Shown piece by piece: positions 20,958-62,793 of a stretch of 64,000 nt of DNA. A program made the translations under genes and the position numbers. The DNA comes from Asterias amurensis (taxonomy: Eukaryota > Echinodermata > Asteroidea > Forcipulatida > Asteriidae): NCBI RefSeq assembly GCF_032118995.1, contig NC_092648.1:24332059-24396058 (forward strand), written 5' to 3'. Under the pieces are notes generated by a model. The model saw only the letters and a list, made by a program, of their open reading frames with translations, had not been told where the DNA came from and made no database searches. The number at the start of each line of letters is the position of its first letter. Position 1 is the first letter of the stretch.

Positions 20958-23546
20958 ATGATTGAACTAACACGTATCCTGATTGGGTCGCTGGTACTCC
21001 TACTCATGGTCAACGAATCCTACCAGAGTAAGACAGTGAAATGTATTTCCAAATAATTACTCATATAATAACTGTGAGGAATTTTGCTAATTTTAAATTC
21101 TAACTCCACAATCTTGTAATCCGGGATAGAGCTCGCCATGTGTTCTATACTAAATAAATCTGTAACCTACGCCATATTGGATAAGAAGCACGCCATCAAA
21201 AAGCTCTCGGACTTAGACTTATTTATTTTTTATTTTTTTGCGATTCTTATTTGTTTTTCTTCGATCAGTTATACGAATTTCATTTTGCCCATTTCTCATT
21301 ATGCCCCTCATCATGAAGACATTGCGTGATATCACGCCCCTCATCACACCTGACTCCTTTGATTCAATTGAGTCATGTTTCATTACAAGAAATAACATTG
21401 TGATTCGCACTACTTAATGTTCTTTCTTTATTATGATACATTTCTAGCCACATGTTATAACAGTCAGGGCGTCCGCGATACCGATGGCCGCTTCTGCTTT
21501 GATACCAGCCTGTCTTGTTGGTCCAATAAGTTGAAGCCAGCTCACCTGTCAGACATAAACAACGAGTTCTACCTGTTCACCCGTCAGGATAATAGTGACA
21601 AACGCTGCTATTACCGACGACAATTATACTGGGACGACCCCGACACATTCGATGGTTTCCACAGCTACAAGAAAACAATTGTTATAATCCATGGCTGGCG
21701 AACAAGCGTTTGGAACGGATACTTCATGTCACTCTGTCATTCGTTCATGAAATTGGTATGTATAACTTTTGTGTCTAGATACCCTCCGCAGCGTTCTCAT
21801 TGGTTGTTCGAGTGATGTATGAAGTGCGTTTTGGCGACCCCAACCAAGCCCAACCGAGAAACGAGTCGGTTTACCGTTTTGTTTGAACAGCCTCTCTATC
21901 GCGGTTTAAACGCGAAAACGCTCAACCGATGACTAAACAGTTTCTGGTTTCGGGTCGCCAATACGCACTATATACAAATACCCTTTCGCACTCCATTGCT
22001 CAAGCGCTTACTGTTGATTGGGGTGCATGCTGGCCTAGCTAGCGATCAACCTTGATAATTTATAGCTTAACCACAGTGCATCTCATTCCACGTCTAACGT
22101 GCTCGTAACGAGTATTGACGATAATATGTGCGTAAATCCGGGGTGGGGATATTGAGGATTGCATCAGTCACACTTCGTATTACATACGGCAGGCCGCGTA
22201 TTTTTTTGCCCAGGACAGATGAGGCCACTTACCATTCAATGGGCGCATGCTAAGTGGCCTCATCTCATCTGGGGCAAAAATACGCCAGCAGGCCAAATCT
22301 TATAACACTAATAAAACAATACTGTCACATTATACAGGGCAACTACAACATCATCATGGTGAGTTGGCCATCGTTCCGATGGGACTTACTTACTTATCAA
22401 AAGAGTGTGATGGATATCGTACTGGTTGCAAAGGAACTTGCCTTACTGCTGGAGGAGTTGCACGAGCATCGAGGTTTACAGTACGAAGACGTCCACATGT
22501 TGGGGCACAGCCTTGGTGCCCATCTGGCAGGGTACACTGGCATGTTCTTAAACGGACAGATCGGGCGTATTTCAGGTATACAGCTAGACTTGAGTTAAAA
22601 TCTAGCTGAGATCGCGATTGTTTTAGCTGAATCGGACAGGCAACCCCAGCCCGGCACCTCGCGCGTTTTGCGTACTAACACATTATGGATTGATGATAAA
22701 AACTATTAAAACATTCAATATATTTCGATACTTTCAAATCACACTTCCAGTGGGTTACGATCGGGCAAAGCAATCTGGGAAAGAAAAAAACATGGCTAGG
22801 CAAGGTTATACACCGATGGGAACGAAGTTGATATGATTATCTATGGTGAGAACTATTATGTGCCTTTTTCTTTCTTTTCTATTTTAATTTCGGGTCAAAT
22901 TGATCGGCCAACCAAAAATTTTACACATAGCAATTATTATTTGGCTCTTTATAATTGTGAGTTTACCCTATACAGGCCTCGACCCTGCGAGACCTGGTTT
23001 CAGGGAGTACCTCGGCACTTCAGATTGCCATTTGGATAGAACTGACGCTGACTTTGTTGATGTCATCCATACGGATGGACCACTCCATCTGTTCGGACTT
23101 TATGAACCGGTAAGTTTTTGTTTAGCCCGAAAAAATAGCCTCAAAAGAAGATGTGTTCGGCTGAAGCTGGAACCCCTAATTAAAAAGTAAATTGGCATAT
23201 TGTGCACCCAATCTTTGTGTTAAATTAATGATATGAATGAATACCTCTGACACAGGTGGGTCACCAAGACTTTTATCCTAACCATGGCGCCCTAGCGCAA
23301 CCAGGCTGTCCTTGGATCCCCCACTGCAGTCACATGCGAGCAATTGACTACTACTTATCCAGCATGAAGAACTTCCACATTCGGCCCGGTCGAACCTGTT
23401 CCTTCGACACCCTGACTCGGATGTGGCCGCCCCGTTGCAGCGGGACATGCCCCCGGATGGGCATCCATGCAGAGAAAGGAGACGGCTCTGGAAGATTCTT
23501 CATCAGGATGAATTCCAACAACTGCGGATACCGCTTCCTTATGTAG
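20958..23546 (+). CDS. Secreted pancreatic-lipase-family enzyme, gene B
   Basis: Five coding exons: 20958-21027, 21448-21755, 22338-22575, 22976-23109 and 23256-23546, all with GT-AG introns; 346 aa. A likely 5' UTR intron ends at 20930 (TTTGTTCCAG). Residues 1-22 form a signal peptide (LIGSLVLLLMVNESY). The lipase fold shows the VIIHGW oxyanion-side motif (His105), nucleophile elbow GHSLG (Ser184), LDPA (Asp208) and CSH (His276). The Ser-Asp spacing of 24 equals that of human pancreatic lipase (152/176). Asp to His is shorter because the lid, between Cys268 and Cys274, has only five residues (PWIPH). There is no PLAT domain. Family knowledge: short-lid, PLAT-less members are often phospholipase A1 or galactolipase, so hydrolysis of phospho- or galactolipids is inferred. 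The C-terminus is RFLM; gene D reads past this stop. Paralogue of D, from which it differs mainly in exons. Confidence 0.93.
22197..22286. repeat. Foldback in intron 2 of gene B
   Basis: Arms GATGAGGCCACTTA and TAAGTGGCCTCATC face each other around about 20 bases, extended outward by TTTTTGCCC / GGGGCAAAAA. The same structure is at about 61432-61520 in gene D. It lies some 50 bp before the exon-3 acceptor. Confidence 0.85.
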
Positions 23547-23688
23547 ACGTTTGGATAGGTTACGTTTTGATATATTAGTTGTCTATTTTCTCGTATAGAG
23601 ACCTACTCAGAACTCGGTTGAGTATCTTTGTTTGATCAGCCATCGTAAACGTTTCTATTATTCTGCAAGTTTGATACACATTGTTTAA
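23547..23688 (+). other. 3' flank of gene B
   Basis: Nearly identical to 62794-62926 after gene D. I see no AATAAA close to the stop, so the polyadenylation site is not located. Confidence 0.5.
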
Positions 23689-24071
23689 AGGAACACGTTG
23701 CCTTGGATCGGTCGAGTTGGTCTTTGAAAAGCGTTCTATAACCGTTTGTTATAAAATCGGTATGGTTAGAAAGATGTTGTAAAAGTAGAATACAATGACC
23801 TACACAAATATGCCTCGAAATTGCGTGGTTTTCGTGTTACCTCGTCGACAAACACGGTCGGCCATTTATGGGGGTCAAAAACTTGACTCCCATAAATGGC
23901 CGACCGTGTTAGTCCGCGACGTAAAATGAAAACCGTACAATGTTGAGTGCTACTTGTGTGGATCATTGTATTCTACTTTTACAACATCTTTCTAACCATA
24001 TGCATTTCATAACAAACGGTTTCAAACGCTTTTCAAAGACCAACTCGTCCGATCCAAGGCAACGTGTTCCT
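23689..24071. mobile_element. Foldback TTAA MITE (GGAACACGTTGCC family)
   Basis: A near-perfect palindrome of 383 bp: AGGAACACGTTGCC ... GGCAACGTGTTCCT, with a centre at CATAAATGGCCGACCGTG facing its inverse. TTAA lies at 23685-23688 and 24072-24075. The paralogous locus after gene D (62920-62930) has a single TTTAAA and no element, which is a true empty site. Other copies are at 26268-26800 and 28961-29178. Confidence 0.93.
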
Positions 24072-24450
24072 TTAAAGGCAGTGGACATAACTATTCAAAA
24101 TAATTATTAGCATAAAACTTGTTAACGAGTAATGGGGAGAGGTTGATGGTATAAAACATTATGAGAAACGGCTCCCTCTGAAGTGACGTAGTTTTGGAGA
24201 AAGACGTAATTTTCCACGAAATGATTTCGAGACCTCAGATTCTGAAATTGAGGTCTCGAAATTAATCAAGCATCTGAAAGCACACAACTTCGTGTGACAA
24301 GTGTGTTTTTTTCGTTCATTGTTATTTTGCAACTTTGACCACCGATTGAGATCAAATTTTCACAGGTTTGTTATTTTATGCATGTGTTGAGATACAGCAA
24401 GTCAGAAGACTGGGCTTTGACAATTACCCACAGTGTCCAGTGTCTTTAAA
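24072..24450 (+). mobile_element. TTAA MITE (GGCAGTGGACAC family), copy 3
   Basis: Full-length and abutting the preceding MITE: the TTAA serves as right flank of one and left flank of the other. The counterpart after gene D is at 62927-63311. Confidence 0.88.
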
Positions 24451-25190
24451 GGTTTTGTGTACTTTTTGTACGACACAAAACATAATGTCCGCAGGTTTAC
24501 ATTTTGTTTACACAGATAATGATGGTCAAAATATACCCGCTTAAAATAATTTTTGCTGAGGTGCTGTAGTTTCTGAGAAATGAGTAAAACAATGTCACAA
24601 AAGTAATGTTCGTCTCGGGAGACGAACGTCATTCTAATTTGTTCAACGTACTTACCAGTAGTGTCATAACGATAGTCTCCTGAAAACATCACTCCCTGAT
24701 TTTCACCTTTTTTCTCTAAAGAACTTGACGAGACAGGAAGCTGAAACATCTACAGGTAAGTTATATTACATACATCTACCATGAGTTTAGGGATTCCTGT
24801 CATGTTCAAAAACCTACAAAAGGAACCGACACCCTTTCAAACTCTTAGCCTATATTATTTACTCTAATATAATATAACTTTGACAATATTTAGCGGCATG
24901 TTAATTGGCTTGTTACTTTACATATTTAGTCTTAAGCGCATTTGTCAAAAGGGGGTGGGAGTGTCTGGTATACTTTAAATAAATAAATGATAAGGGTGAA
25001 ATAGTGTGTTTAACAACGCAAACATAATTGCATTAATATGAGTAGATGGTCTTGGATTAAATTACATCTCGATCATCGGGGGAATATGTGTTTAAATGGT
25101 GGGCAAATTTGGTAGTAAACAGAGGACTCATACGGCAAACTATGCACACACTTCTTCTGTAAGCGCCCTCTTTTTAATTGTCTACCTCCG
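24451..25190. other. Duplicated 3' spacer after gene B
   Basis: Co-linear with 63312-64000. The segment at 24460-24770 includes a short inverted pair (GTTCGTCTCGGGAGACGAAC at 24609-24628). I see no gene. Confidence 0.6.
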
Positions 25191-25193
25191 TTA

Positions 25194-25378
25194 AGCCCGG
25201 TTCATACTTCCTGCGAATGCGATACGAATGTTGACGTCACAAATTCGCAACGAATAGTTCGCAGCAGTTAAACTTTTTTCAACTCACTTGCGAATATCGC
25301 TGCGAAAGAAGGGTTGTGACGTCAAAGTTACGTAAAAGTCGCTTCGCATTCGCATTCGCAGGAAGTATGAACCGGGCT
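25194..25378. mobile_element. Foldback MITE with TTA target duplication
   Basis: AGCCCGGTTCATACTTCCTG at the left faces CAGGAAGTATGAACCGGGCT at the right, with TTA at 25191-25193 and 25379-25381. A 3-bp TWA duplication is typical of PIF/Harbinger elements. A fragment of the same family sits at about 48520-48560 (GCATTCGCAGGAAGTA). Confidence 0.88.
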
Positions 25379-25438
25379 TTAGTGTACGGTGGGGGAACTA
25401 TCCCCGGCGTACAGATTTCCATAAGACACCATCACGTT

Positions 25439-25800
25439 AAAGGCACAGGACACAATTAGTAACTACTCAAAATAATTGTTAACAACAAAACTTACTCGCG
25501 GTAACGAGCAATGGAGAGCTGTTGATTCTTTTAGAAACGGCTCCCTTCTGAAGATACAGTTTTTGGGAAAGAAGTTATTTCTCACTCAAAAATAGAGGAG
25601 TTCAGGCCTGAAGCATTTAAATAAGCATTTTAAAGCACACAAATTTTTGCAACAATGGCATTTGTTCTTTCACTATTCTCTTGCAACTTCGATGATCAAT
25701 ATGGAGTCAAATTTTGGCAGATTTGTTTTAATGCATGTGTTTGGATACACCAAGTGAGAATACTGGTCTTTGACAATAACTAAACGCCAGTGCCTATAAA
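25439..25800 (+). mobile_element. TTAA MITE (GGCAGTGGACAC family), diverged copy 4
   Basis: Begins GTTAAAGGCACAGGACACA and ends CCAGTGCCTATAAA. More diverged than the copies in the segmental duplication. Confidence 0.8.
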
Positions 25801-26267
25801 CCGCAGATTTTTGATTCAAATTACACTCTGTCAATTTGTTTTTGTTAACTTCTAAGTTATTTAAAAACAAAACTTGTAATGCATGAATTTGTCTCCTCCT
25901 GACAGTTGTTATCATGGCACCTTCAAGAGTATGACGCAAGAAAACATTAAACAAAAGAGAAGACAATAATAGGCAGTATTGAATTGAGTTTTAAAGGTTT
26001 CTTTTAAGCTTGTATTATAATGATGCAAAATGTATAATGAATTCCACAAACAAGTAGCATACGCCCTCTAACACCAACTTTCTTTAGTGGGAACGAGACT
26101 CAAGGACGTTTTGAGAATCTCGATGATCGTAAACCAGGTAGAGGGGAATGAATGAAGAACAAGTATATCCAGGGGCTAAACCATTGAGGGCCCGAAAAGT
26201 AAAAACTAAATTTTTCAAAGAAATTCAATCTCGAATTATAGAATCAGGTTAACAGATTTTACTAAGC

Positions 26268-26800
26268 AACACGTTGCCTTGCAACGGTCGAGTTGGTCTT
26301 TGAAGAGCGTTCTGTAATCGTTTGTTATAAAATGCATATTCTCCAGAAGACGATCAGAGCACACTGATCGAAACGTCGAGTTAAACCAACGGTTCTTTTC
26401 AGAACCACCCCAACTCATTAAGAGATTATTACATGGTGTTACCTCAAACTCTTCTATATCTTATCTCCACCATGCAAAGTTTCATATTGTTAGAAAGATA
26501 TTGTAAAAGTAGGTTACAATGATCTACACAAATATGCCTCGAAATTGCGTGGATTTCTTTTTACCTTGTCGACTGACACGGTCGGTCATTTATGGGAGTC
26601 AACATTTTGACTCCCATAAATGGCCGACCGTGATAGTTCGCGACGTAAAAGGAAAACCGTGCAACTTTGGGTGATACTTGTGTGGATCAGTATAATATTC
26701 TACTTTTAAAACATCTTTCCAACCGTATGCATTTCATAACAAACGGTTTTAAACGCTTTTAATATACCAACTCGTCCGATCCAAGGCAACGTGTTCCTCT
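26268..26800. mobile_element. Foldback TTAA MITE interrupted by a Penelope-like tail
   Basis: Same family as 23689-24071 (CACGTTGCCTTG at the left, CAAGGCAACGTGTTCC at the right). About 150 bp of foreign sequence (26341-26489) interrupt it after TAAAATGCATA, flanked by CATA on both sides. Confidence 0.82.
26341..26489 (+). mobile_element. Penelope-like element terminal fragment with hammerhead-like core
   Basis: CAGAAGA, a 7-bp stem CGATCAG / CTGATCG, then AAACGTCGAG, followed by GGTTCTTTTCAGAACC and ACATGGTGTTACCTCAAAC. This order (CTGANGA-like box, stem II, GAAAC) is that of the minimal hammerhead ribozymes carried by Penelope-like retroelement repeats; here the first box has A in place of U. 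A tail fragment with the same ending is at about 37890-37975. Confidence 0.6.
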
Positions 26801-28960: not shown

Positions 28961-29178
28961 GGGACAATCGGACGAGTTGGTCTTTAAAAAGCGTTTGTAA
29001 CCGTTTGTTATAAAATGCAATGTTAGGAGAACCATACAATTTCGAGGCATGTTTGTGTGAATCGTTGTATTCTATACTTTGAGAACATCTTTCTAACCAT
29101 ATGCATTTTATAACAAACGGTTACAAACGTTTTTCAAAGAACAACTCGACCGATCCAAGGCAACGTATTCCTTTAATA
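28961..29178. mobile_element. Foldback MITE (GGAACACGTTGCC family), short copy
   Basis: CGAGTTGGTCTTTAAAAAGCG facing CAAAGAACAACTCG, with AACCGTTTGTTATAAAATGC arms. About 210 bp; the central GGCCGACCGTG palindrome is missing. Confidence 0.78.
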
Positions 29179-31504: not shown

Positions 31505-31508
31505 TTAA

Positions 31509-32022: not shown

Positions 32023-32026
32023 TTAA

Positions 32027-34613: not shown

Positions 34614-34615
34614 TA

Positions 34616-35839
34616 TGGTGGCCCTGACGGGACACAGCCAGTCGTGAATATTTTTGCGACGTCTTGAATATTTTTGCGACGTCGTGAATTTATTCACGAC
34701 AAGTCGCGAATTTTTTCACGACTAGTCGCGAATTTTTTCACGACAAGTCGCGAATTTTTTTACGACTAGTCGCGAATTTTTTCACGACTAGTCGCGAACA
34801 TTTTCATGACGTCGTGAATATTTCTGCGACTAGTCGCGAATATTTTTTCAGTAGCTTGAGTGTGTAATTACTGTATTCACGTTGACGGCTTAGTAAGACT
34901 AAGCTGAAAGCTGTCCCGTACGATGATGGATCCGGAGGAGAATTCCGACTCTTGCAAATCGATGGTGGGTTATTTAAACAAAACTAACGTTGACGTATGG
35001 CCCTTACGGTAGGCCTACGAGGCCTGACGTTATAGTTTTACTAGTACTTTAGTAGGAGTAGGCTATCCTATGCTAGGCAATAAACGTTGGCACTTTCACT
35101 CTTCAGATAAAACATAACGTTATATGTCACCCGAGGTAAATTTTACAAACAACCCAATGATAAGTTTAATTATAATGTGTTGACAATTTCAGCAAATAAA
35201 TTTGACAATTTTTACCTGAAATGTTAGAGCAATTTGCGTTGTTATTTCCAACTTGAAACGCGAGTTCGTTCCGTCACGGCAGGGTGCAACGCATCACGTA
35301 ATCCCCCACCAAGTTTAACTGAAAGATTAATCCTTTGGCATTCAGAATTATTTGGGTTTGGAGTAATTCAACCTTGAAAACCCCCGAAATATTGATGAAA
35401 GTCAGACACTGTTTTTCCGAACTTCGATAACAGTTCTACTGGATAAAACATGGGCCCCATACACATAGCTGAGTGGCTACAATCTTCATAGCTTGGCTCT
35501 CTACGCGTGCCGTGTAAGAATTACACACTCAAGCTACTGAAAAAATATTTACGACTAGTCGCGAATTTATTCACGACTAGTCGCAGAATTATTCACGACG
35601 TCGTAAAAAATATTTGCAACTAGTCGTGAAAATATTCGCGACTAGTCGTGAAAATATTCGCGACGTCGCGAAAATATTCGCGACTTGTCGTGAATAAATA
35701 TACGACGTCGCGAAAATATTCGCGACTAGTCGTGAAAATAATTATTCGCGACGTCGCGAAAATATTCGCGACTTGTCGTGAATAAATATACGACGTCGCG
35801 AAAATATTCACGACTGGCTGTGTCCCGTCAGGGCCACCA
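34616..35839. mobile_element. DNA transposon derivative with long arrays of CGACTAGTCG-type motifs
   Basis: TGGTGGCCCTGACGGGACAC at the left faces its inverse at the right; TA at 34614-34615 and 35840-35841 is the target duplication. Each arm then carries a tandem array of ~17-bp units of the form GTCGCGAATATTTT with self-complementary joints CGACTAGTCG, CGACGTCG or CGACTTGTCG (about ten on the left, about fourteen on the right). Inside the arrays a second inverted pair, CAGTAGCTTGAGTGTGTAA and its inverse, bounds a 650-bp core. The core starts with a short frame (MMDPEENSDSCKSM, 34923-34964) followed by GTGGGT, possibly the first exon of a lost transposase. Confidence 0.85.
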
Positions 35840-35841
35840 TA

Positions 35842-42390: not shown

Positions 42391-42403
42391 TTTTTGTCAT
42401 AAC

Positions 42404-43197
42404 ACCGGTCAACTCGGTCCCAAACCAACTCGGTCCCAGTCATACGTTGACAGTTTTTTCACTAATTTCTCAAAAACTACAACACCACAGCAAGTAATAT
42501 TTTAAGGGAAGCTTTCAACTATCATTATCTGCAAACTGTTTAAGTTTAGTGTAAATCTGTGGACATGATGGTGTGTCGTCGTCGTCAAAAACCCCTATTC
42601 AATTACGCACGTTCGTTTGAACGAAATCCCTAAACCTTCGTACTTTGTCGCGTGTAAAGTATATGGGCCCGGAACTCGGTTAGATTGTTATGGGTCCTGA
42701 ACGATGGTAGGAAAACAGAATGAGTAGACTTCCTCTCAAGAAGTCACAACTCATGATAGTTACATACTGTATGACATTTACCATAGAGAATGTTTAACAA
42801 TAACATGGAAGTGACTGCATCCAGTTATATTCAAACGCGTAGACTCATCTCAAGAAGTCACAACTCATGATAGGTACATACTGCATGGCATTTACCAAAG
42901 ATAATATTTAACAATAACATGGAAGCGACTGCATCCAGTTATATTCAAATGAAGATTAACGTGGTTAATTAATTAAGATTCTTAAAAAAATTTTACATTT
43001 AAAGTAAAGCTTATGTTCTAAGCTACAATTTGGTATAATAAACTCACTCTTTCGTATTATGGTTTGGGAGATTAGGCTTAAAGAAAAAAAAAGTGTACAA
43101 ATGGTATGGGTTTTAGGCAAAAACAAAGAATAAGAAAAAAAAAAAAAAATCACGACAGAAACAAAACCTGTTCCGACGGTAGGTCGGAACAGCTAAT
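42404..43197. mobile_element. Diverged solitary copy of the array unit's 3' part
   Basis: Aligns with 1630-2420 (ACTCGGTCCCA, GTCGTCGTCAAAAAC, AAGAAGTCACAACTCATGATAG, AAACAAAGAATAA), with many differences. It ends in one hairpin, 43168-43192: CTGTTCCGAC, loop GGTAG, GTCGGAACAG. The stem is kept while the loop differs from the array version. It shows that the hairpin is a native terminal part of the element. Confidence 0.88.
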
Positions 43198-47534: not shown

Positions 47535-50500
47535 ATGATTGAACTAACGCGTATCCTGGTTGGGTCTTTGGTACTCCTAGTCATGATCAACGAATCCTAT
47601 GGTAAGACAGTGTAAACTGTAATCCCCCGGTCAGAACTTCGACCCGGATCCCCGTGGGACCTGATCCGTTTCCGAGTCAGTATGACCCGGATTGTCAAAA
47701 TGACACAGAAACGTGTCAAGTTGACGCAGAATCCGAGCTGAAGTCCAATTTTTAAAGGCACCGGACTAGTCACACGTTTGGTAATTGAGACCGGAATCCG
47801 GATCAGGAGTTTTAGAGTGTGTTCAAAATAATTACTGTACACAAACTCTGAGTGTAATTTTGTTATAGGCTAATAATAATCTCTGAAATTTACGATGGGC
47901 CGAGTCAATTAAATGGAAAAGTGGTATATAATATGCATTGTGTCTGCATAAAACCATACATAAACCTAATTTAACAAGCTTGAATGTACAAACGCGCGGC
48001 ATACACATTATTCTTTATTAATAAAGGCAGTAGACGCTATCGGTAAATACACAAAATAATTGTGAGCATAAAATCTTACTTTGTAACAAGCAATGAGCTG
48101 TTGATAGTTATATAACACATTGTTAATGTTAGAAACGGCTCCCTCCAAACTAACGTAGTTTTCGAGAAAGAAGTAATTTTTTACGAATTTGATTTCGAGA
48201 CCTCAGAATTAGATTCAGATGTCCTTAAATCAAGCATCTGGAAGCACACACAACTTAAGGGTGTTTTTTCTTCCATTATTATCTTGCAACTCCGACGACC
48301 AATTGAGTTCAAATTTTCAAATTTTTACAGGTTTGTTATTTTGTGTATAATTTATGTTGAGATACACCAAGTGAGAAGACTGGTCTCTGACAATAACCAA
48401 ATGTGTCCAGTGTCTAATTTATATTCATCAATACACACAATAATTTATGCAACAACATGCAGATACCATCTATTTCGGTGGACACCTTTTTGCCTCTTAA
48501 ACAGGAAGGATTACAACATTCGTATTGCATTTGCATTCGCAGGAAGTACAGACCGGGCTTTTATATGCGGGCTTGGAATAAATAAAGAAACAATGCTTCA
48601 TTTTCAGCCGAGTGTTATGACCGTGATGGCACCGTAAACCCCGATGGCCTCTTCTGCTTTAATAGCGACGAACCATGTTGGTCCAGTTTGGACCCATCTC
48701 GTCTGGCAACCATGGACAACCAGTTCTACCTGTTCACTCGTGAACTGACGGGTGAAAACAAGTGCTCGTGCGGCGGGAATGAGCTTTCCTGGGACGATCC
48801 CAACACTTTCGGCGATATCTCCAACTCTAGAGAAACAGTTGTGATAATCCACGGTTGGACGAGCAGCAGTGGAAACGAATACGAATCTGCGATGTGCGAT
48901 GCGTTCATGGAATTGGTATGTAGCCTATATAGGGTGCGTTCGATTAGCTTCCCCGGGTCGACCCCGGTGTGTGGCGTTTTCTTTTTCTAGGACGAACATG
49001 TGCAGATAATTACCCACATTCGTCCTGGAAAAAAAAACGCCACACACCGGGGTCGACCCAGGGAAGCTAAACGAACGCACCCTTATTATGCTGTACATAG
49101 ACTTGTTCCAATAAGTCTTTTGCGTATTAGATTTGAATGTTGTTTGGTAATGGCGTGTGGATCAAAAGTCACCACCTAAGTTTGAATTCCTCAGATTATA
49201 GAGACAGTTGCTAAGTCACATGATTAGGATAAGCTTTTGCGTAGAAGTATAAGAGTGGCATGGTGATACCCTGGATGTTGTCCCGCAAGGATTGTTTTAT
49301 GGGTGTTAACCTATAACACAGTTCTGTCTGAAAGGATGTGTATGGCACAATATGGGTCTGCTCATCTGATGGAGGTTAACCTTGTTTGGAGCGAACTTGG
49401 ATAAAAAAATAATAATGAAACAATCATCTGGTATATTTGCGAGTATAGTTTGGCGAGCACATGGCTATATGAACGTGAGATAGGTAGGCCTATCACATGA
49501 GACTACAACCTCTCTCTAAGATTGATCGTAATTAGCTGATGCAAATCAATCGTAGTTGCTAAGAAAAGTGTGATGTCACAATACAAATCACTAAGGTGAT
49601 ACCTCAAAATTTGTCTTGCGCTGGATTTTATTGCTTGGTGAAATCGGCCCCTGGTCACACAGGCCTCAATAACAAGAACGAAAACGAGAAAGAAAACGAG
49701 AACGATAAAAATGCACGCCCTTTAATGGTTGAATGAGCGTGGGTTCTGCATTCAACCAATCGATGGCGTGCATTTTTATCGTTCTCGTTTTCGTTCTCGT
49801 TTTCGTTCCCGTTATTGGGGCCTGTGTGACCGGGTCTTTATGTCAAATTAATAAGTAGTCTTTACAGGCTGGTCCAGGTAAGTTTGCCATGATTGCTTCT
49901 CCGCTCACTGGAGTTGTTGTTCCCCCTAGGTTTAACACAGTATGTCATTTACAGGGCGACTATAACATCATCATGGTAAATTGGGAGTTGGCGGCCGATA
50001 ATATAAACTACATTCGGAGTAAGATGGATTCCAGACTAGTCGCAAGGGAACTTGCAGTACTACTGAAGAAGTTGCACGAGCATCCAGGATTAGACCTAGA
50101 TTACGCAAACGTTCACTTGGTGGGGCACAGCCTTGGTGCCCATTTGGCGGGCTACACTGGCGATTTCTTACAAGGACAGATCGGGCATATCACAGGTAAG
50201 GATATATAGACATATAGACTTGACTTCAGTTCTGAGGTTGCATTTTTTTTATCTACATCAGCCACACCCCCTGCGTTCATGCATACGAATTTCAGGAAGA
50301 TTTTTTTTATGCTAAAGAATGAATTTCATTTCACAGACGCAGTTTCCCAGATCCACTTGCTCCTAATAATTGTTGTACAAGTAAAAAGTATACTGAAATA
50401 TGTATGATGAAGTACAGTAAAAACAAATAGAACATGTTTATTTTCGGGTGAATTCGATATTACTATACCTCATACATATTCATGACCGAGAGTCGAGTTC

Positions 50501-52983
50501 TCAGCATCAACATCACATGACCCGATTTATGCCAAAAGACATTTCTGAAAGAATTGTTTCTCGAAAGACGAATGTTGACAAATGATGCTGATTCAAAACA
50601 TTTGTACATGTCTGGTGGACGTGAGATAGTGTCATAGCAATAATTGTTTATAACACCGTTAACAATTGGCCACTTGTTTTGTTTTTAATGCAAAATAAAC
50701 CTTAAACGAATGCTTTCATCCAAATAATTTGAAAACAAAATAGCTATTCAAAAATTTAAATCTCAATTTTCAGGTAAAATCGGCCACCCAATATAGTTCA
50801 ATCAATCAATCAAACGTAATTTGTATAGCGCCTAAATCAAAAGTTTGCTCAAAGTTGGACCTTGCGTATGAAATCAGAAGGAATACTTTGTTTGCTTTTA
50901 ACTGTTCGATTGTTTAAGTCATATAATGAAGATAATATAATTTACTACATCGAAAGCTGCTGCACTTCTAACCAAGTCAGTTTTTGTTGCCGTTATTTCA
51001 CGAGTGATAACCAAACAGTTGCATTTTTGACGTGAATTTTAATCTTGTCTTTTTGTTGGTTAATTTAACAAATTCTCATGTACAATCTAATACTGCTGGA
51101 CTTTGAATTATTTCTATTTATTTTTTTATTTTAAAGATAGTGGACACTCGGTAATTGTCAAATTATTAATCTTCTCACCTTGTATATCTCAACATACGCA
51201 TAAAATAACAAACCTGTGAAAATTTGAGCTCAATCGGTCGTCGAAGTTGCAAGATAATAATGAAAGAAGAAACACCATTGTCACACGAAGTTGTGTGCTT
51301 CAGATGCTTGATTTCGAGACCTCAAAATATTTCAAAATCCGAGATCTCGAAATCAAATTCGTCGAAAATTACGTCTTTATCGAAAACTACGCTACTTCAG
51401 TGGGTGAGCCGTTTCTCGCAATGTTTTATTATCATCAACAGCTCCCCGTTACTCGTTACCAAGTTACAGGTTTTATGCTAATAATTATTTTAAGTTATTA
51501 CCGATAGTGCCTTTAATTGTGTGCAGTTGTAATGTTTTTGAATTTTATTGTGTTAGTGTGTATGTGTGTTTATTATATTTGATATAAATGTTGAGAGACG
51601 ACGCGTGTTATATACAGCTTCGGATTTAACAATGTTATATCTATCTAATCTATCAAATCTACAGGCCTTGACCCTGCGAGACCAGATTTCAAAGATTATG
51701 TGGGAAAGCCGGAGTGCGTTTTGGATAAAACTGATGCCGACTTCGTTGACGTCATCCATTCGGATGGAAGCCTCCACGCGTATGGACTTGAGGAACCGGT
51801 AAACCTTGTTTCAACCGCCCCAACCCTTTCATAATATTAATATTTATTCGGGCAAACACATTATTTTACAAGTGCGTGAAGTATACTTATAAACAAATAT
51901 TTAAAACAAACAAAGTAAAACAACAGCGGGATACCAAGTAGAGCTTTTAAAAACTTAAAAAAAGTAAAAACAAAATTAACTTCGTCGAAAGGCGTATGTC
52001 TTCTAAACCCGAGAAATAAAAAAAAAAAACATATAAAAAGGAACATAAGAAAATACAAACCAATTAACAACTAGACTATGAAAGGCCCAACAAGCATAAA
52101 AAGGAAAACAGATGAACATAAAGGAGATACTTAAAAAGCCAGACTTAACATCAAAATGAGTTTTGAGCTTTCGACCCCCCCCCCCCCCCCGAAACCCCCA
52201 ATCAATAACACCAAAATGAGGAATTCGGTTGATGCCCGTGTCCAAGGGAATTCTGTCCGCCGGAGATTCGGTCCCCCGTTAACATTGGAGGAGGAGGATT
52301 CAAAAGAGGGCGCTGTAGAAGAAGTTTGTACTAAGTTAAAACTTTGTACAAACTTCTCCTGATAGCGCCCTCTTTTGAATCCTCCTCCTACACCTACGTT
52401 AATCCGACCCCTACGTTAGTTTCCAATGAGAAGGACTGAATTTCCGGCAGACAGAATTCCCCGGTACCCGGCACTGATCTCCAGGGGGACAGAATTCCCG
52501 CCACAACCACACTCAACGAGAACGACAACGAAACCGATAAAAATGCAAGCACTCGATTGGTTGAAATGCTCCACGCAGAATACGTCCACGCTCATTCAAC
52601 CAATCGAGGGCGTGCATTTTTATCGTTCTCGTTTTCGTTCTCGTTATCGGGGCCTGTGTGACCGGACCTCTAATCAATGTTCCTTCTTTTTACAGTTGGG
52701 TCACCAAGACTTTTATCCGAACGAAGGAACCTTTATGCAACCAAAGTGTTGGTGGAAGGTCGCTTGCAGTCACATGCGGGCATATGACTTCTACTTATCC
52801 AGCATAAAGAACTTCGACATTCAGCCCGGCCAAACCTGTTCCTTCGTCACTGAAGCGTGCAGCGGGACGACGTGCAGCGGTACATGTCCCCGGATGGGCA
52901 TCCATGCTGAGAAAGGAGACGGCTGTGGAAGTTTTCGCATCACGATGACATCAAGCAACTGCGGGTGTGCATACATTGTCTAG
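47535..52983 (+). CDS. Secreted pancreatic-lipase-family enzyme, gene C
   Basis: Five coding exons: 47535-47601, 48608-48915, 49955-50195, 51665-51798 and 52696-52983; 345 aa, same intron phases as B and D (1, 0, 1, 0). Signal peptide residues 1-21 (LVGSLVLLVMINESY). Motifs: VIIHGW (His104), GHSLG (Ser184), LDPA (Asp208), CSH (His276). The lid is five residues (WWKVA) between Cys268 and Cys274. The tail reads SGTCPRMGIHAEKGDGCG with one extra cysteine compared with exon A. There is no PLAT domain. Introns are longer than in B and D (1006, 1039, 1469 and 897 bp) because each has collected MITEs. The start has context CAAG-ATG and sits 27 bp into its exon. A secreted lipid hydrolase is certain by family; the substrate is not. 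Confidence 0.93.
48022..48416 (+). mobile_element. TTAA MITE (GGCAGTGGACAC family), copy 7, in intron 1 of gene C
   Basis: Begins ATAAAGGCAGTAGACGC and ends GTGTCCAGTGTCTAA; diverged but full-length. Confidence 0.82.
48931..49083. mobile_element. Foldback MITE just inside intron 2 of gene C
   Basis: AGGGTGCGTTCG ... CGAACGCACCCT with inner arms GGGTCGACCCCGGTGTGTGG and inverse; 153 bp. It begins only 15 bp after the exon-2 donor (GTATGT at 48916). Confidence 0.9.
49653..49831. mobile_element. Foldback MITE (GGTCACACAGGCC family), complete, intron 2 of gene C
   Basis: GGTCACACAGGCC and GGCCTGTGTGACC ends with AACGAAAACGAG-rich arms. It defines the full form of the elements at 9471-9628 and 52509-52663. 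Confidence 0.9.
51133..51515 (-). mobile_element. TTAA MITE (GGCAGTGGACAC family), copy 8, in intron 3 of gene C
   Basis: Inverted orientation: AAAGATAGTGGACACTCGG at the left, CCGATAGTGCCTTTAA at the right. The central hairpin lies at 51311-51356. Confidence 0.83.
52247..52465. mobile_element. Foldback in intron 4 of gene C
   Basis: GGAGGAGGATTCAAAAGAGG facing CCTCTTTTGAATCCTCCTCC, extended outward by GGAATTCTGTC / GACAGAATTCC. Only the right arm survives at the matching place in the A copy (9297-9432). Confidence 0.85.
52509..52663. mobile_element. Foldback MITE (GGTCACACAGGCC family) beside exon 5 of gene C
   Basis: Right arm complete (GGGGCCTGTGTGACC), left tip lost. It ends 32 bp before exon 5, so it occupies the branch-point region of intron 4. 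Confidence 0.82.
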
Positions 52984-53225: not shown

Positions 53226-55410
53226 TAAGTGAAAATTCAGAAATAGGCAATGATGGGCAAATTCATCAAAAAACAAATACATTGCCCTATTTGCTTCTGG
53301 TAAACGGTGGATGAGTCAGTTTAAATAAAGGGGTGGGCGTGACCTATAGTGGGATTGCGTCCTTACCATCTCTCTCAATGTAAAAGTGAAAACTACTCGT
53401 TTTGTCCGCCATACCACCGTTGCAAAAAGCCATAATGACATACAAATATTTTGAGAGTGAACAACGGGTACTTTTAACTCAATTTAGAGAGAAAGTTCAT
53501 ACCACTTTCACGAAGAGGAGTGGTGCCGATTTCACTCTCAAAAAAGCGAAACTGACACAACTCGGAAGAGAGTGAAATTGTTCACTCTTTTACCTACGGA
53601 CATAATACTAGTTTACATTAAAACAGAAACTACAGGTGCGAATGAATCTGCATGCCATTATACACAAGTAAATGTTTTCAGTAAAGGAAACGTTATCATT
53701 ATTATAGATCTGTCCATGACATTTTGAAAAGATCAAGCATAGCGAAAATTATGTCAAATTTTTGACCGTGATACACTTTATAATCGACTTGGAAATCGAA
53801 AATTCAACAAGTCAACAATTTTACGATCTGTCTGTTCAACGCTAGGTGGCAGCAGACCAAAATAATTGTCATAGACCCGTCGAAATACCCATTGCGCAAT
53901 GAGGTACATGCTGGTCTAGATAGGGACCAAGCTTGATAGCTAGCTAGACCAGCATGCACCTTATTTCACGGCTAAGACGCGTGTACAGAGAATTTGCGAA
54001 ACGTTCTATGTTTACGTCGCTGGACATGTTCACATTTCCGCTGGTAAGTCTGCTGCCATCAAGTCCCCCCCCCCCACCCCCCATTGAAATTGTTCTTCTT
54101 AGAACACGACTTTTAAGAAGGATGAAATTATTTTACTACGTGGTTTTATTTGGCACTAACAGTGATTAAAAAAAGGAATGCGAAATAGTAACAACTACAA
54201 TTGTACGAGTCAGTTATTGAGCAATCCTGTCTAGAATCCTAAATTGTACGCCTTTTAGCAAAAATAGGTTTTAAGCCAAAGTGCAAAGGATAAGATTTAA
54301 CAAATTGTGTTGACTTATAAAAAAAAACTAACCTAAACAAACTGATTTATTTCTTTATTAGCCAACTTTCACAGTTTGCAATTTTGTTAAGGTTTATTTT
54401 ATTCAAAAACCACAAATCGGGTCCAAAATGCCAAATTAAAAGACACCTTACATCAGAACACCTGATATTGCCCTACGCAAAGCATAGCAAACGCCAACTT
54501 CGCTTGAAATTCCTTTAAAAATATATTCAGCCCGTTGTAATATACAATGACGTAGTTGTTCAGACTAACCACACTCTCGTACTTTGGTGTCCATTCGACA
54601 ATTTTGTAGTTCCATTCAAAGTTTGGTTATTCTATTTTACCCTGGTTTTAGCTAGTATATAGTCACTAAACTACAATTAAAGAAATACTTGTTGCCTACA
54701 TGTAATTATATTTAGCTCCACTCCTAAGATCAACAAAACAAACTATTTTTTTGTTTAGTCTTGCGCATTATTTTCGGTATATGAGGTGTTGTGACGTATG
54801 GAACTATAATATGAGAACAGAGTGCGTTCCTTCTAGGCCTATTTCTGATAACAGTGCGGAGTGGTATCCATTGAGTTTGGTTGCAGTTTGCTCACAGGGG
54901 GCCTTCATTTCCCACTGGTACTTCGTGCAACTTGGTAAGGTTGAAGGAGTTGTTGGGGATCTGGTGAGTTTATTATCTAAATCATAAATGGATGTTATTT
55001 TACTTGTCATTGTCTTAAAATAAATTGGCTTGCCTTTACAATACTTTGTAATGTTAACATCCATATGTTCCAATTACAGCTTGGCGTAGTGAACATAGTA
55101 ATTGCTTGCCACTTTTGTGTTAGGCAAGATAGTTGACTTTCTTTGACGCAGTTTCTCATAAACATATAATGAGCTTTCATAAAAGATTATGGGACTCTGT
55201 TTTACAACTTGGATTGTAATTGATTAAATTTGTGTAGCTTTACTTAATTTAAATGAGTATACTGTCTAAAATATGGTTGTTCTGATTTTCGTTAACAAAA
55301 TTGTCTGTGTTTGCTTTTTGTTCATCATAACTCGTCCGAATGATATGAAATTGTAATAACCGAGAGTCGAACAAATTAATTAAATAAATTAAATCAACAA
55401 TCAAGAATTT
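53226..55410. other. Duplicated intergenic spacer, second copy
   Basis: Co-linear with 13560-15767 with scattered small differences and a longer C run at 54066-54083. I see no gene. Confidence 0.7.
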
Positions 55411-55710
55411 TTGTAAGTTTCATCGATCCCTTCTGAATGAATACTCCAACCCTTGACATGGTGAAACACACTAGCTCGACTCACAAGCGAACCCTGCCTC
55501 TTTTCGATAAGTGTATTGGGTTCTTTTATATGCGTTACGCAACACACGGGACCAACGGCTTTACGTCCCATCCGAAGGACGAAGCAATAGTTGAGTGTCT
55601 TGCCTAAGCAAACAAGTGTCCAGACTGGGGATTCGAACCCATACTCTGCTGATCAGAAACACCAGAGTTTGAACTCGGTGCTCTTATTCGCTCGGCCACG
55701 ACACTTCCAC
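55411..55710 (-). mobile_element. tRNA-derived SINE, second segmental copy
   Basis: Counterpart of 15768-16077. The minus-strand A box is at about 55691-55704 and the B box at about 55628-55640. The body is slightly shortened. Confidence 0.75.
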
Positions 55711-56648: not shown

Positions 56649-58351
56649 TCCTAACATTTTGTTAACAGCTCCCATGGGATTTGCTCACATTTTCCAACCT
56701 GAACCCTTTAATTGTTCGGTCATTGTCCTCTTTTGTTTTATGGATTAGTTTGAACTATAACCACCGATCTGGGGACCTCTTCTTTTTCCTCTTTTGTTTT
56801 TTCAGTATGGTGTTTGTTTTTGCACATGAAGAGATTTCCCCCATCATCTTCCTGAGGAAGTTACAAACAGAACTTGGCCTTGTATTTTCAAACAAACACT
56901 TCCTGGACGCGAGACTGGTACCGAGTAGAAGGTTGAAGTATTACACCCCCCCCCCCCCCTCTTTATGATGGGTTGACTGTTTGAATAACCAATATTGTAG
57001 GAAGGGATGGTGGGGAAATGCAAAAAGTACAAGTATGCAGTACTACCAGACTTGATGACAGGAAACAGGGTTGGACTACTGATGTTTTTTAAAATATTTT
57101 TTTTCATTCTACACAAGACATGGTCTGTATTAACGTCATTACTTTGAAAGCCTTGAACCCTTGCTCTATATTTGAACAAATACGATACTTCATAAGCAAC
57201 AACAACCCTTCCACCAAAAGACGCCGTAAAAGGACGCCCTCTTTCGGTGCTCCGACAATGCCGACATTCTCGTCAAGTTTCTGTCGTAACAAAATGGTGC
57301 CCAAAATCACAGCCATTAAACAAATGCAATAGAAAAGGACCACGAAAATATCAAGACGATCAGAAACATAGTACGAAAATTAGCACCAAGATCCGTTTTT
57401 TTCGCGGGCCGTTATAGGCATGGCAGTGGTGAGGTCTGTCTATTTGAAGGCCATTAAAGATCCTTACTTGAACTTATTTGCACTGTTTTCGAACTTTTGG
57501 GGTGAGTGCAGATTTTATACCAAGATATATGTAGTGTTAATTTTGTCCATATTTTATTTTTCTCTCTCACCCTTGGAGCACACTGATGAGCGTCTCATGC
57601 GCCTATCTCTTTTTCCTCTTTTAAACTCACAGGAGGCGCTGGTTTGGTTTATTTTTGGTTCCCCTTTTCTCCACTATTTTTGTCTGTTGTTGTCTCAGAC
57701 TTTTTCCCAAATGACGAGCGTGAGTTTTGTCTGTTTCGTGTCTAGGAGCTTTGGGGTCGGGTTTGTTTGCTGCAAAACCCCGGGGTAGCATGTCGTGCGG
57801 AAAGAGGAAGACCAAAATCCAGATTGACCCTATCTAGGCCCTATGGTGTTTCCTTTACAAAAGTCTTCTTCACAAAACAGAAAGCGTATTGTTCGTATAG
57901 TGATAACACGTACTTTTTGTCCCTCCGTTGTTATTGACGTTCTGTTTCACCATGCAATCTTTCGATACCCTCGATAAATTTCCAACCAGGCAAAATGTGT
58001 ATTTTTATTATTTTCCTCAAGTCAAAGAACTTTTCTGTGTAGAGTTCGCTTAAGAAGATATTTGTTAAGGAAACACCATAAGCACACAAACATGCTCGTT
58101 CCGGCCGGGGCAACATGCCAATATGGCAAGATGTATAGGACTACTTTTAATTTCTGATTGCGCCAAAACCATAACCATATAACTTCCTTCATCGAAACAC
58201 TATTTATGATGTAATGTTTTCTTATTCTCCCTGAAACTTTTGAAATGTTGTGAAACAGATTTGAAGTTTTACGTGTTCTTAGACCTTATAATGAAAATGC
58301 TACTTTTTCTGGTAATGATGAGGTCATCGAAGACGTCATAACATAAAGTTT
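56649..58351. other. Duplicated intergenic spacer
   Basis: Co-linear with 16286-18891 but without the GCGCCA element and the 150-bp segment found at 18221-18370. I see no gene. Confidence 0.65.
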
Positions 58352-58731
58352 AAAGGCACTGGACACTATTGGTATTTACTCATTATAATTATTAATATAA
58401 AACCTTAATTGGTAACAAGTAATGGGGAGCTGTTGATAGTTTAAAACATTGTCAGAAACGGCTCCATCTGCATTAACATAGTTTCGAGAAAGAAGTAATT
58501 TTCCACGAATTTGATTTCGAGACCCCAGATTTAGAAATTGAGGTGTCTGAATTAAGCATCTGAAAGCACACAACTTCGTGTGACAAGGGTGTTTTTTCTT
58601 TCATTAATATCTCGCAACTTCGACGATCGATTGAGCTCAAACTTGTACAGGTTTGTTATTTTATGCATATGTTGAGATACACCAAGTGAGAAGACTGATC
58701 TTAGACAATTACCAAAGTGTCCAATGTCTTT
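58352..58731 (+). mobile_element. TTAA MITE (GGCAGTGGACAC family), copy 9
   Basis: Counterpart of 18892-19270. Here it is single and undisturbed. Confidence 0.87.
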
Positions 58732-59304
58732 AACAAATATGTATATATATTTATATCTAGAGAACAATAAACGATAGACCTACAAAATATTTGCACCATG
58801 AAAGCTCTTGATGCATGCATAGTACAAACTTTACAATCACCTCTACTTTCGGCCGAAACCGGACGTTGAAATACATGTATGCATGGATGTATGTATAAAT
58901 TGAAACACCTATACTAAATATCCGTAACCTACGCCATCTTGGATAAAAAGTGCGCATCGAAAAGTTCCCGGCCTTTAGACTTGCCATTTTTTCTATGATG
59001 TCTTAGATCAGATTGTATTACTCCTTTGAATGCTAATACTTATCACATCCTCATGTTAAAGCCGTTTTTGCATAAATCACCAAGCTAGATGCAACTCCTA
59101 TGGCCGTCTGGTAATCAGTGGAGCCATCTTGCGTAAAGTGGCGCGGCTTACAGTGAATGGAAAGAAGCAGACCTTTGAAGATCCCTTACTTTCCTCAAAA
59201 ATGTTTCTATGAAGCAAAGAGCACATCACCAGTCTTCATTTGTTGTTTGTTAATGGACAGAAATACTTGGTTCTTAATGTGCACTTAGTTCTTCAGCCTG
59301 TGTA

Positions 59305-59640
59305 AGTAATAGTAATAATAGTAATAACTATATAGCGCATTTCATAATAATGCACTTTACTTGTGCCCTGGTCATTTTGGCCAGTAACTTCCCTTTAATT
59401 CTTCTCAGCTCCCTGAAAGCCCTGAGCTGCCGGGTTGCTCCAGGGGCTTTTTCGTACACAATATCAACCTCTACCTTATCAGGTGCCCATTTATACCCCT
59501 GGGTGAAGAATAGTAAATCATTTTGCTCAAGGACAAAAGTTCACGACCATCACGACCGGGATGTGAACCGTCACTCCGATGATCCTAACCACCAGAACTT
59601 TAAGGCGAAGTTCTAAACCACTCGTCCATGACACTTTACA
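59305..59640 (-). mobile_element. SINE-like repeat, second copy
   Basis: Counterpart of 20284-20640 with small indels. Confidence 0.55.
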
Positions 59641-59759
59641 GTAGGGCTGAACCTTCAATATGCTTCGTTACTAAGCTTCAATAATCCAATTCATTGTTTA
59701 ATTAATTACCTGTAATCATCGACATATCTGTATCATTACTGAGTCAGTATGAAATAAAT

Positions 59760-59848
59760 GTTGTTGTTGTTGTAGTTGTAGTTGTTGTTGTTGTTGCTGT
59801 TGCTTTTGCTGTTGCTGTTGCTGCTGCAGTATGAAATAAATGTTGTGG

Positions 59849-59883
<35 letters not shown>

Positions 59884-59939
59884 GCTGTTGCTGCTGCTGC
59901 CGCTGCCGCTGCCGCTGCCGCTGCCGTTGCCGTTTGCCG

Positions 59940-60014
<75 letters not shown>

Positions 60015-60030
60015 TTGTTGTTGTTGTTTT
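59760..60030. repeat. Compound TTG/CTG/CCG microsatellite upstream of gene D
   Basis: Runs of TTG, TGC and CCGCTG interrupted by a repeat of CAGTATGAAATAAATGTTG (59826-59845, also 59747-59765), so the tract has been duplicated with its left flank. It ends about 115 bp before the start codon of gene D. Much longer than the equivalent tract before gene B. Confidence 0.95.
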
Positions 60031-60144
60031 TAGGCTAATGTGACGTCGTGATTTTGAGGCACTTCACTGCTTCAATTATGCAGGCATATCAAACTATATT
60101 GTCATGTGTTGTTCCAGGTTTTACTGGTATCAAGGCTGGACAAG

Positions 60145-62793
60145 ATGATTGAACTAACACGTATCCTGATTGGGTCGCTGGTACTCCTACTCATGGTCAA
60201 CGAATCCTACCAGAGTAAGACAGTGAACTGTATTTCCAAATAATTACTCATATAATAACTGTGAGGAATTTTGCTAATTTGAAATTCTAATTCCACAATC
60301 CTGTAATCCGGGATACAGCTCGCCATGTGTTCTGAGAAGGGCGTTCTTCATGTATGCAAGGATGTGGAATATCTATACTAAATAAATCTGTAACCTACGC
60401 CATATTGGATAAGAGGCACGCCATCAAAAAGCTCTCGGACTTAGACTTATTTATTTTTATTTTTTTGTGATTCTTATTTGTTTTTCTTCGATCAGTTATA
60501 CGATTTTCATTTTGCCCATTTCTCATTATGCCCCTCATAATGAAGACATTGCGTTATATCATGCCCCTCATCCTACCTGACTCCTTTGATTCAATTGAGT
60601 CATGTTTCATTAGAAGAAATAACATTGTGATTCGCACTACTTAATGTTCTTTCTTTATTATGATACATTTCTAGCCACATGTTATAACAGTCGGGGCGTC
60701 CGCGATACCGATGGCCGCTTTTGCTTTGATACCAGCCTGTCTTGTTGGTCCAGGCCTGGGTCCAAGTTGAAGCCAGCTCACCTGTCAGACATAAACAACG
60801 AGTTCCAGCTGTTCACCCGTCAGGATAATAGTGACAAACGCTGCACACATTACCAACAGTTAACCTGGGACAACCCCAACACATTCGATGGTTTCCACAG
60901 CTACAAGAAAACAATTGTTATAATCCCTGGCTGGCGAACGCGCGTTCGGGACGACTACATCCTGCCACTCTGTCGTTCGTTCATGAAATTGGTATGTATA
61001 ACTTTTGTGTCTAGATACCCTCCGCAGCGTTCTCATTGGTTGTTCGAGTGATGTATGAAGTGCGTTTTGGCGACCCCAACCAAGCCCAACCGAGAAACGA
61101 GTCGGTTACCGTTTGGTTTGAACAACCTCGCCATCGCGGTTTAAACGCGAAAACGCTCAACCGATGACTAAACAGTTTCTGGTTTCGGGTCGCCAATACG
61201 CACTATATACAAATACCCTTTCGCACTCCATTGCTCAAGCGCTTACTGTTGATTGGGGTGCATGCTGGCCTAGCTAGCGATCAAACTTGATCATTTATAG
61301 CTTAACCACAGTGCATCTCATTCCACGTCTAACGTGCTCGTAACGAGTATTGACGATAATATGTGCGTAAATCCGGGGTGGGGATATTGAGGATTGCATC
61401 AGTCACACTTCGTATTACATACGGCAGGCCGCGTATTTTTTGCCCAGGACAGATGAGGCCACTTACCATTTAATGGGCGCATGCTAAGTGGCCTCATCTC
61501 ATCTGGGGAAAAAATACGCCAGCAGGCCAAATCTTATAACACTAATAAAACAATACTGTCACATTATACAGGGCAATTACAACATCATCATGGTGAGTTG
61601 GCCATCGTCCCGATGGGAATTTATTCAGTTACACGAGAGTGTGATGGATATCGTACTGGTTGCAAAGGAACTTGCCTTACTGCTGGAGGAGTTGCACGAG
61701 CATCGAGGTTTACAGTACGAAGACGTCCACATGTTGGGGCACAGCCTTGGTGCCCATCTGGCAGGGTACACTGGCATGTTCTTAAACGGACAGATCGGGC
61801 GTATTTCAGGTATACAGCTAGACTTGAGTTAAAATCTAGCTGAGATCGCGATGGTTTTAGCTGAATCGGACAGGCAACCCCAGCCCGGCACCTCGCGCGA
61901 TTTGCGTACTAACACATTATGGATTGACGATAAAAACTATTAAAACATTCAATATATTTCGATACTTTCAAATCACACTTCCAGTGGGTTACGATCAGGC
62001 AAAGCAATCTGGGAAAGAAAAACACATGGCTAGGCAAGGTTATACACCGATGGGAACGAGGTTGATATGATTATCTATGGTGAGAACTATTATGTGCCTT
62101 TTTTTTTCTTTTCTTTTTTAATTTCGGGTCAAATTGATCGGCCAACCAAAAATTTTACACATAGCAATTATTATTTGGCTCTTTATAATTGTGTGTTTAC
62201 CCTATACAGGCCTCGACCCTGCGAGACCTTTTTTCCGGGAGTACCTCGGCACTTCAGATTGCCATTTGGATAGAACTGACGCTGACTTTGTTGATGTCAT
62301 CCATACGGATGGACCCATCCATGCGTTAGGACTTTATGAACCGGTAAGTTTTTGTTTAGCCCGAAAATTAGCCTCAAAAGAAGATGTGTTCGGCTGAAGC
62401 TAGAGCCCCTAATTAAAAAGCAATTGGCATATTGTGCACCCAATCTTTGTGTTAAATTAATGATATGAATGAATATCTCTGACGACACAGGTGGGTCACC
62501 AAGACTTTTATCCTAACCATGGCGACCTCGACCAACCAGGCTGTTTTTTGAAAATCGAATGCAGTCACCTGCGAGCAATTGACTACTACTTATCCAGCAT
62601 GAAGAACTTCCACATTCGGCCCGGTCGAACCTGTTCCTTCGACACCCTGACTCGGATGTGGCCGCCCCGTTGCAGCGGGACATGCCCCCGGATGGGCATC
62701 CATGCAGAGAAAGGAGACGGCTCTGGAAGATTCTTCATCAGGATGAATTCCAACAACTGCGGACGCCCCTTCATCAAGTGGCCGGTTGGATAG
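60145..62793 (+). CDS. Secreted pancreatic-lipase-family enzyme, gene D
   Basis: Five coding exons: 60145-60214, 60675-60991, 61572-61809, 62210-62343 and 62491-62793; 353 aa. The signal-peptide exon is identical to that of B. Ser187 (GHSLG), Asp211 (LDPA) and His279 (CSH) complete the triad. Two features stand out. The oxyanion-side motif reads VIIPGW, with proline 108 where B and C have histidine. The C-terminus is extended to GRPFIKWPVG because the stop used by B is a Trp codon here. Exon 2 has three extra residues (RPGSK against NK), and the lid is FLKIE. Introns match those of B closely. It is a secreted lipid hydrolase by family; the proline and the altered loops suggest changed specificity or reduced activity. 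Confidence 0.93.

Follow-up and report, generated by a model that had tools for sequence, protein, structure and literature searches.

In a 64,000-nucleotide stretch of the genome of the starfish Asterias amurensis (contig NC_092648.1, positions 24,332,059 to 24,396,058; hereafter called the window), two lipase genes, B and D, differ from each other in short coding blocks that are set into nearly unchanged surroundings (Table 1). The pattern suggests that gene copies exchanged such blocks, which were retained for the diversity they provide. With a probability of about 0.6, we favor the explanation that loops of the active site, derived from older paralogues or alleles, were shuffled by short-tract gene conversion and retained by diversifying selection. 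What B and D display is a real and well-defined exon-restricted segment diversification, most like the accelerated segment switch in exons to alter targeting (ASSET).

Substitutions between B and D were found at 72 of 1041 exon positions (6.9%) and at 36 of 1543 intron positions (2.3%), in agreement with a preliminary description of this DNA, which had noted by eye that the exons are far more diverged than the introns. For exons 1 to 5 the counts are 0/70, 31/308, 12/238, 8/134, and 21/291, and for introns 1 to 4 they are 14/419, 8/580, 9/400, and 5/144. The by-eye counts were accurate to within two and had rightly given exon 1, which encodes the signal peptide, as identical; introns 1 and 4, which they had left aside, diverge by 3.3% and 3.5%, respectively. 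The exon differences are strongly clustered, with 34 of 63 neighboring pairs at most 3 nt apart (10.9 expected, equaled by 0 of 2000 random placements), a clustering that is absent from the introns (3 of 35 neighboring pairs, 2.4 expected, p 0.44). The exon differences are also asymmetric on the coding strand, where 24 (or 22) A/C differences stand against 5 G/T differences (p 5e-4 to 1.5e-3), and the same count in the introns is 7 versus 5. Selection on amino acids or a strand-biased mutation process could cause this asymmetry.

B and D lie on the two copies of a segmental duplication, one of which extends from A to B (9.3–25.1 kb) and the other from the end of C to D (52.3–64.0 kb), both with insertions. 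Divergence of the duplication is 1.7–5.2% across ten aligned segments, two of which contain the B and D genes. As the 2.3% of the introns falls inside this range, it is the exons and not the introns that are anomalous: intron divergence is at or below the ordinary duplication background, and the exons are the outliers. Homogenized introns as the main cause of the pattern were therefore rejected, although 2.3% is near the low end of the range. Likewise, a general effect of the duplication on exons was rejected by exon 5 of A and C as a control, in which 7 of 288 bases differ (5 replacements, 2 synonymous changes) versus 16 of 365 immediately upstream. Each altered codon of this control carries a single-base change, and four of the seven altered codons are among the first 19.

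Replacements between B and D occurred at about three times the intron rate (58/813 sites versus 36/1543, p 5e-8, up to 6e-7). A gene-wide pairwise ratio of replacement to synonymous rates (dN/dS, omega) significantly above 1 was not found for B versus D, either with a codon model or with a bootstrap of the Nei–Gojobori counts (NG86). Two alignments differing in gap number were used. NG86 gave a dN of 0.076 and a dS of 0.057 with few gaps, and 0.070 and 0.046 with more gaps; dN was at or below dS in 8–16% of the bootstraps. The Goldman–Yang codon model (GY94), in our own implementation, estimated omega at 1.42 and 1.63, with 2 delta lnL values against omega = 1 of 0.98 and 1.72. The non-significant omega is compatible with the threefold replacement excess because the synonymous sites of the exons also tend to lie above the introns (12/225, p 0.015; 10/223, p 0.07 in the other alignment). 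Simple positive selection as measured by gene-wide dN/dS was thus rejected as a sufficient explanation, since omega is not significantly above 1.

When the replaced codons were grouped by a six-codon rule, ten clusters resulted, which we refer to as blocks. The longest replacement-free run comprises 64 codons (33 expected, p 0.005), 183 of 345 codons lie more than five codons away from any replacement (86 expected, 0 of 5000 shuffles), and two exon stretches of 195 bases are identical between B and D. Of the replaced codons, 15 of 41 (one alignment) or 18 of 43 (the other) are changed at two or three bases. Inside the blocks, dS is 0.14–0.19, whereas outside only 3 of 168 synonymous sites differ, which is the background level; the 259 codons outside carry no replacement, which is partly due to the block definition. 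Seven codons are purely synonymous, confirming the earlier count of about seven synonymous changes, and five of these seven lie at most two codons from a replacement (p 0.005); neighborhoods of one and three codons gave p values of 0.007 and 0.014. Five of the ten blocks occupy the active-site rim, namely the post-HG loop, the next loop, the Asp-side loop, the pre-VGH loop, and the mini-lid, and the replaced residues favor active-face loops, with the loops picked after the blocks were known. All 12 cysteines are conserved between B and D.

Other Asterias copies were compared at the protein level, using the A. amurensis proteins P0001 and P0002, the A. rubens protein P0003, and the fragment P0005. 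P0001 equals B except for residues 75–89, which include one extra residue, and residues 291, 293, and 301, and its states at 291–301 are common with A. rubens. In P0002, the lid string and the residues D, I, and P at positions 113, 116, and 118 agree with gene D, but block 78–89 is that of B, except for one residue. According to the alignment, none of the ten blocks is identical to B in all of P0001–P0003; P0003 differs from B outside the blocks too. Among B, D, P0001, and P0002, 15 two-state sites support the three alternative groupings 11, 3, and 1 times, and sites of one kind lie together (p 0.014). The four-gamete test, applied to five sequences, is failed by 53 of 105 pairs of two-state sites overall and by 4 of 15 among pairs at most 12 residues apart. 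Judged by these protein sequences, the Asterias copies combine blocks in ways that fit no single tree, and these conflicting combinations point to exchange. Convergence could account for single sites, but hardly for a contiguous string such as FLKI versus PWIP.

The preliminary description had compared the pattern with the accelerated evolution of venom phospholipases and had named patchy conversion from unseen paralogues as the alternative. Accelerated evolution is supported by the roughly threefold replacement excess, the identical signal exon, the preference for active-face loops (chosen post hoc), and the 12 of 12 conserved cysteines; it is called into question by the non-significant omega of 1.4–1.6, the block-wise multi-base changes, the raised synonymous divergence of the blocks, and the conflicting sharing. 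Conversion, acting jointly with selection, fits better, though donor DNA was not found in the window for the six blocks searched in each gene. A purely point-wise process after the duplication, in which replacements, some of them multi-nucleotide, were fixed at loops and nothing was imported, would account for the threefold rate and for a window that lacks donors for the blocks searched, and two of the synonymous changes near blocks could be read as tandem double changes. It would also suit the comparison with the older paralogue C over 42 replaced columns, of which 10 agree with B, 5 with D, and 27 with neither; by these counts, the replaced positions change fast on several lines. We nevertheless consider point-wise evolution unlikely, as omega is not significantly above 1, synonymous divergence in the blocks is raised, and a contiguous string is common to copies that other blocks separate.

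Several points weigh against shuffled loops as the explanation. The donor search, carried out within the window with 16-mers and at most one mismatch for the six larger of the ten blocks per gene (12 strings), yielded no donor DNA; the exceptions were a mutual match of B and D in one block and the 3' end of B, which is also found in A, in C, and near 13.3 kb. Since the protein database gives one representative per 90% cluster, it may conceal close copies. The block limits were set around replacements, and the high dN inside the blocks and its absence outside are therefore partly produced by construction. With a five-codon neighborhood, the clustering of synonymous changes reached only p 0.08, and the changes at T109 and P241 touch a replacement and are perhaps tandem double mutations; without them, three of five remain near a replacement (p 0.06). 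The synonymous evidence for imported sequence is thus moderate and not decisive. Furthermore, the active-face loops were selected with the blocks already in view, a preference of replaced residues for coil over helix or strand was not found (25/157 versus 18/167, p 0.19), the N-terminal and C-terminal blocks lie outside the active-face loops, and homoplasy under selection could mimic some of the conflicting sites.

B and D could also be, or derive from, divergent haplotypes, either as alleles assembled in tandem or through unequal crossover in an old balanced polymorphism. The B/D background of 2–5% is in a plausible range for echinoderm alleles, and P0001, which departs from B only at 75–89 and 291–301, looks allele-like. 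However, the duplicated unit begins within a C-type gene, of which A is the exon-5 fragment, and the approximately 25–47 kb portion between the units is single-copy in the window except for dispersed and local repeats. P0001 and P0002 are different copies, listed on A. amurensis contigs of equal size (38,009,675), and an allelic origin alone would leave the age confined to the blocks unexplained. We regard this origin as distinctly improbable.

Decay of D, with exons drifting free of constraint, would explain some individual changes in this gene. At two columns occupied by H and Y in each of the 50 aligned homologues, which do not include D, this gene has H105P and Y146L (B numbering), and its stop is shifted: the stop of B is lost, and reading continues, adding WPVG. 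Ahead of the oxyanion loop, D has PGW in place of the HGW of B and C, with H in 50 of 50 aligned proteins other than D. The changes of invariant residues and of the stop fall in 60925–60982, 61605–61640, and 62776–62793. Past the stop of B, it is B and not D that agrees with A, C, and the stretch near 13.3 kb. Decay was rejected as highly improbable because the replacements are confined to blocks, with the two identical 195-base runs between them, because the open reading frame, splice sites, and 12 cysteines of D are all intact, and because drift predicts the intron rate of 2–3% and not 7%. In addition, variation in these blocks is seen in P0002 and P0003 as well.

We return to the shuffling of loops. 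The blocks would predate the duplication that gave rise to B and D and may have passed between family members or ancient alleles via short-tract gene conversion or recombination, with selection preserving block diversity and purging changes elsewhere. The position of five of ten blocks on the active-site rim is the reason to propose that selection preserves this diversity. Selection very likely takes part, and for the origin of the blocks, exchange between copies has the better support. The function might be a tuned lipid or interface specificity, or the evasion of a protein inhibitor or target, by a secreted enzyme of digestion or defense; D may lack ordinary hydrolysis. A defense role is conceivable for the lipase family because one study reports strong expression of a pancreatic lipase-related protein in the spines of crown-of-thorns starfish, where it also occurs among the secreted proteins, together with plancitoxin and phospholipase A2 (PLA2) (PMC10448888). 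Digestion is equally possible. Only as a tentative extension do we consider that the tandem lipase family draws on a pool of interchangeable active-site loop cassettes across loci, individuals, and perhaps species; the secreted lipases would then be recombined in the germ line in a manner similar to the binding sites of the major histocompatibility complex, in an ASSET-like process with a visible recombination mechanism.

Venom-gland PLA2 genes of viperids reportedly have introns and untranslated parts that are more alike than the mature exons, with dN above dS over the exons. Their fold is unrelated; for the lipases, moreover, omega over the whole gene does not significantly exceed 1, and the changes come in blocks. 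The ASSET of snake toxins is the closest known phenomenon. As described in PMC2711939, ASSET likewise combines a conserved signal exon, similar introns, short swapped exon segments, and retained cysteines, and its segments lie on the protein surface, close to the substrate site in the case of serine proteases; B and D conform in that segment replacement is limited to exons with similar introns. The same paper states that the mechanism is not understood, that recombination is deemed unlikely since the segments are too small, and that venom PLA2 is viewed as evolving more through point mutation (PMC2711939). ASSET concerns toxin families of snake venoms and not starfish lipases, for which a venom role would be hypothetical; as a further difference, we compared intron, scaffold, and block divergence and found blocks in conflicting combinations. 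In HLA-DRB1 exon 2, short polymorphic motifs are also thought to be mixed by conversion and are centered on the binding site, but these are alleles of one locus and a single exon, whereas the lipases are paralogues with blocks in four exons (PMC2408603). The SpTransformer (185/333) genes of the sea urchin likewise form clusters in an echinoderm, keep their first exon conserved, and are built of mosaic coding elements; they have two exons, the second of which is mosaic, and intron types that track the exon element pattern, in contrast to the nearly uniform introns found here (PMC8634487).

In titles and abstract openings of the literature on lipases of Asterias and other starfish, on positive selection or gene conversion in starfish, and on exon-segment switching in lipases, we found no account of this pattern. 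Exon segment replacement with quiet introns is already known in snake toxins (PMC2711939). In the B/D system, the tandem duplication is recent, its neutral background can be measured, the scaffold is fixed, and blocks are shared between copies, so that sequencing could separate the competing mechanisms of point mutation, multi-base mutation, and conversion. The pattern would also indicate that a secreted lipase of starfish is under strong pressure to diversify, with prey lipid, an inhibitor, a microbe, or a predator as candidate opponents.

All splice borders of B, C, and D are GT/AG and their open reading frames are intact; GHSLG, GLDPA, and CSH are found in their translations and in P0001–P0003. 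B and D are recent copies of what is predicted to be a secreted Asterias enzyme of the pancreatic lipase type with a mini-lid. The lipases used for comparison were guinea-pig PLRP2 (1gpl) and hornet venom PLA1 (4qnn). PLRP2 carries a PLAT domain, for which P0001 and P0002 gave no match in Pfam.

Table 1. Lipase genes of the window and blocks that differ between B and D; for blocks, the position is that in B.
Feature	Position	Counterpart in D	Strand	Remarks
Lipase A	9660..9947		+	C-type exon-5 fragment on the other duplication copy; internal control
Lipase gene B	20958..23546		+	five exons, 346 amino acids; GHSLG/Asp/His triad present
Exons of B	20958-21027, 21448-21755, 22338-22575, 22976-23109, 23256-23546		+	
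Lipase gene C	47535..52983		+	five exons, 345 amino acids; older paralogue, outgroup
Lipase gene D	60145..62793		+	five exons, 353 amino acids; C-terminal extension beyond the stop of B
Exons of D	60145-60214, 60675-60991, 61572-61809, 62210-62343, 62491-62793		+	
Block 1	21522..21530	60749-60766	+	S-N-K versus S-RPGS-K; three-codon indel
Block	21606..21647 CYYRRQLYWDDPDT	60842-60883 CTHYQQLTWDNPNT	+	several D-like states in P0001
Block at the end of the HG strand	21687..21743 IHGWRTSVWNGYFMSLCHS	60923-60979 IPGWRTRVRDDYILPLCRS	+	includes the following loop and helix
Block at the loop past the next strand	22371..22406 SFRWDLLTYQKS	61605-61640 SSRWEFIQLHES	+	includes the helix start
Block adjoining the catalytic Asp	22993..23004 PGFR	62227-62238 PFFR	+	
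Block at the loop ahead of the VGH motif	23080..23097 PLHLFG	62314-62331 PIHALG	+	placed by alignment to 1gpl
Mini-lid block	23286..23339 GALAQPGCPWIPHCSHMR	62521-62574 GDLDQPGCFLKIECSHLR	+	P0002 of D type except for two residues
C-terminal block	23526..23550	62761-62793	+	includes four bases past the stop of B; changes at 23547 and 23550

A tblastn search of the window with B found lipase exons in A, B, C, and D only, besides four stray matches with E values of at least 1. The protein search with B covered the best 120 of 275 matches, with one representative per 90% cluster; among the matches listed, the best were P0001 (97%), P0002 (90%), and P0003 (86%), and the next full-length one was Acanthaster P0004 (40%). 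As spliced proteins, B and D show 97.7% identity to P0001 and 89.2% to P0002. P0005 is an A. rubens-like fragment of 207 residues, and single-exon searches of the protein database for further Asterias fragments gave only P0005 again with exon 2 and none with exon 5. P0001 and P0002 match Pfam PF00151 (186.5 and 191.3 bits; curated cut-off 27) and, in addition, two overlapping alpha/beta-hydrolase families. Eight translated open reading frames of the window, two of them lipase exon pieces, gave no Pfam match.

The P0001 model has 70 additional N-terminal residues from an upstream exon. As the counterpart near B is out of frame, these residues are probably an untranslated leader. For this upstream exon (15132-15340 and 54781-54981), the first 54 residues match the D-side copy, with the B side frameshifted, and the following residues VLLVARLDK match B and not D, pointing to a mixed ancestry of P0001's own locus.

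A dispersed repeat of approximately 230–400 bp, possibly a miniature transposon, occurs on both strands at 18.9k, 24.1k, 44.7k, 48.0k, 51.1k, 58.4k, and 62.9k and is about 75–84% alike between most sites; copies of it lie at most 0.6 kb downstream of the 3' ends of B and D, and C has it in introns 1 and 3. Positions 1–9176 hold about three tandem copies of a 3.0–3.3-kb unit (97–98% alike) with inner arrays of 54–207 bp, and a diverged piece of this unit is found at 42401-43133. Palindrome-like 22-bp units (TCGCGAA and TTCGCGA types) form two arrays, one at 34666-34847 and one at 35539-35816, whose sequences match when one is taken in the opposite orientation.

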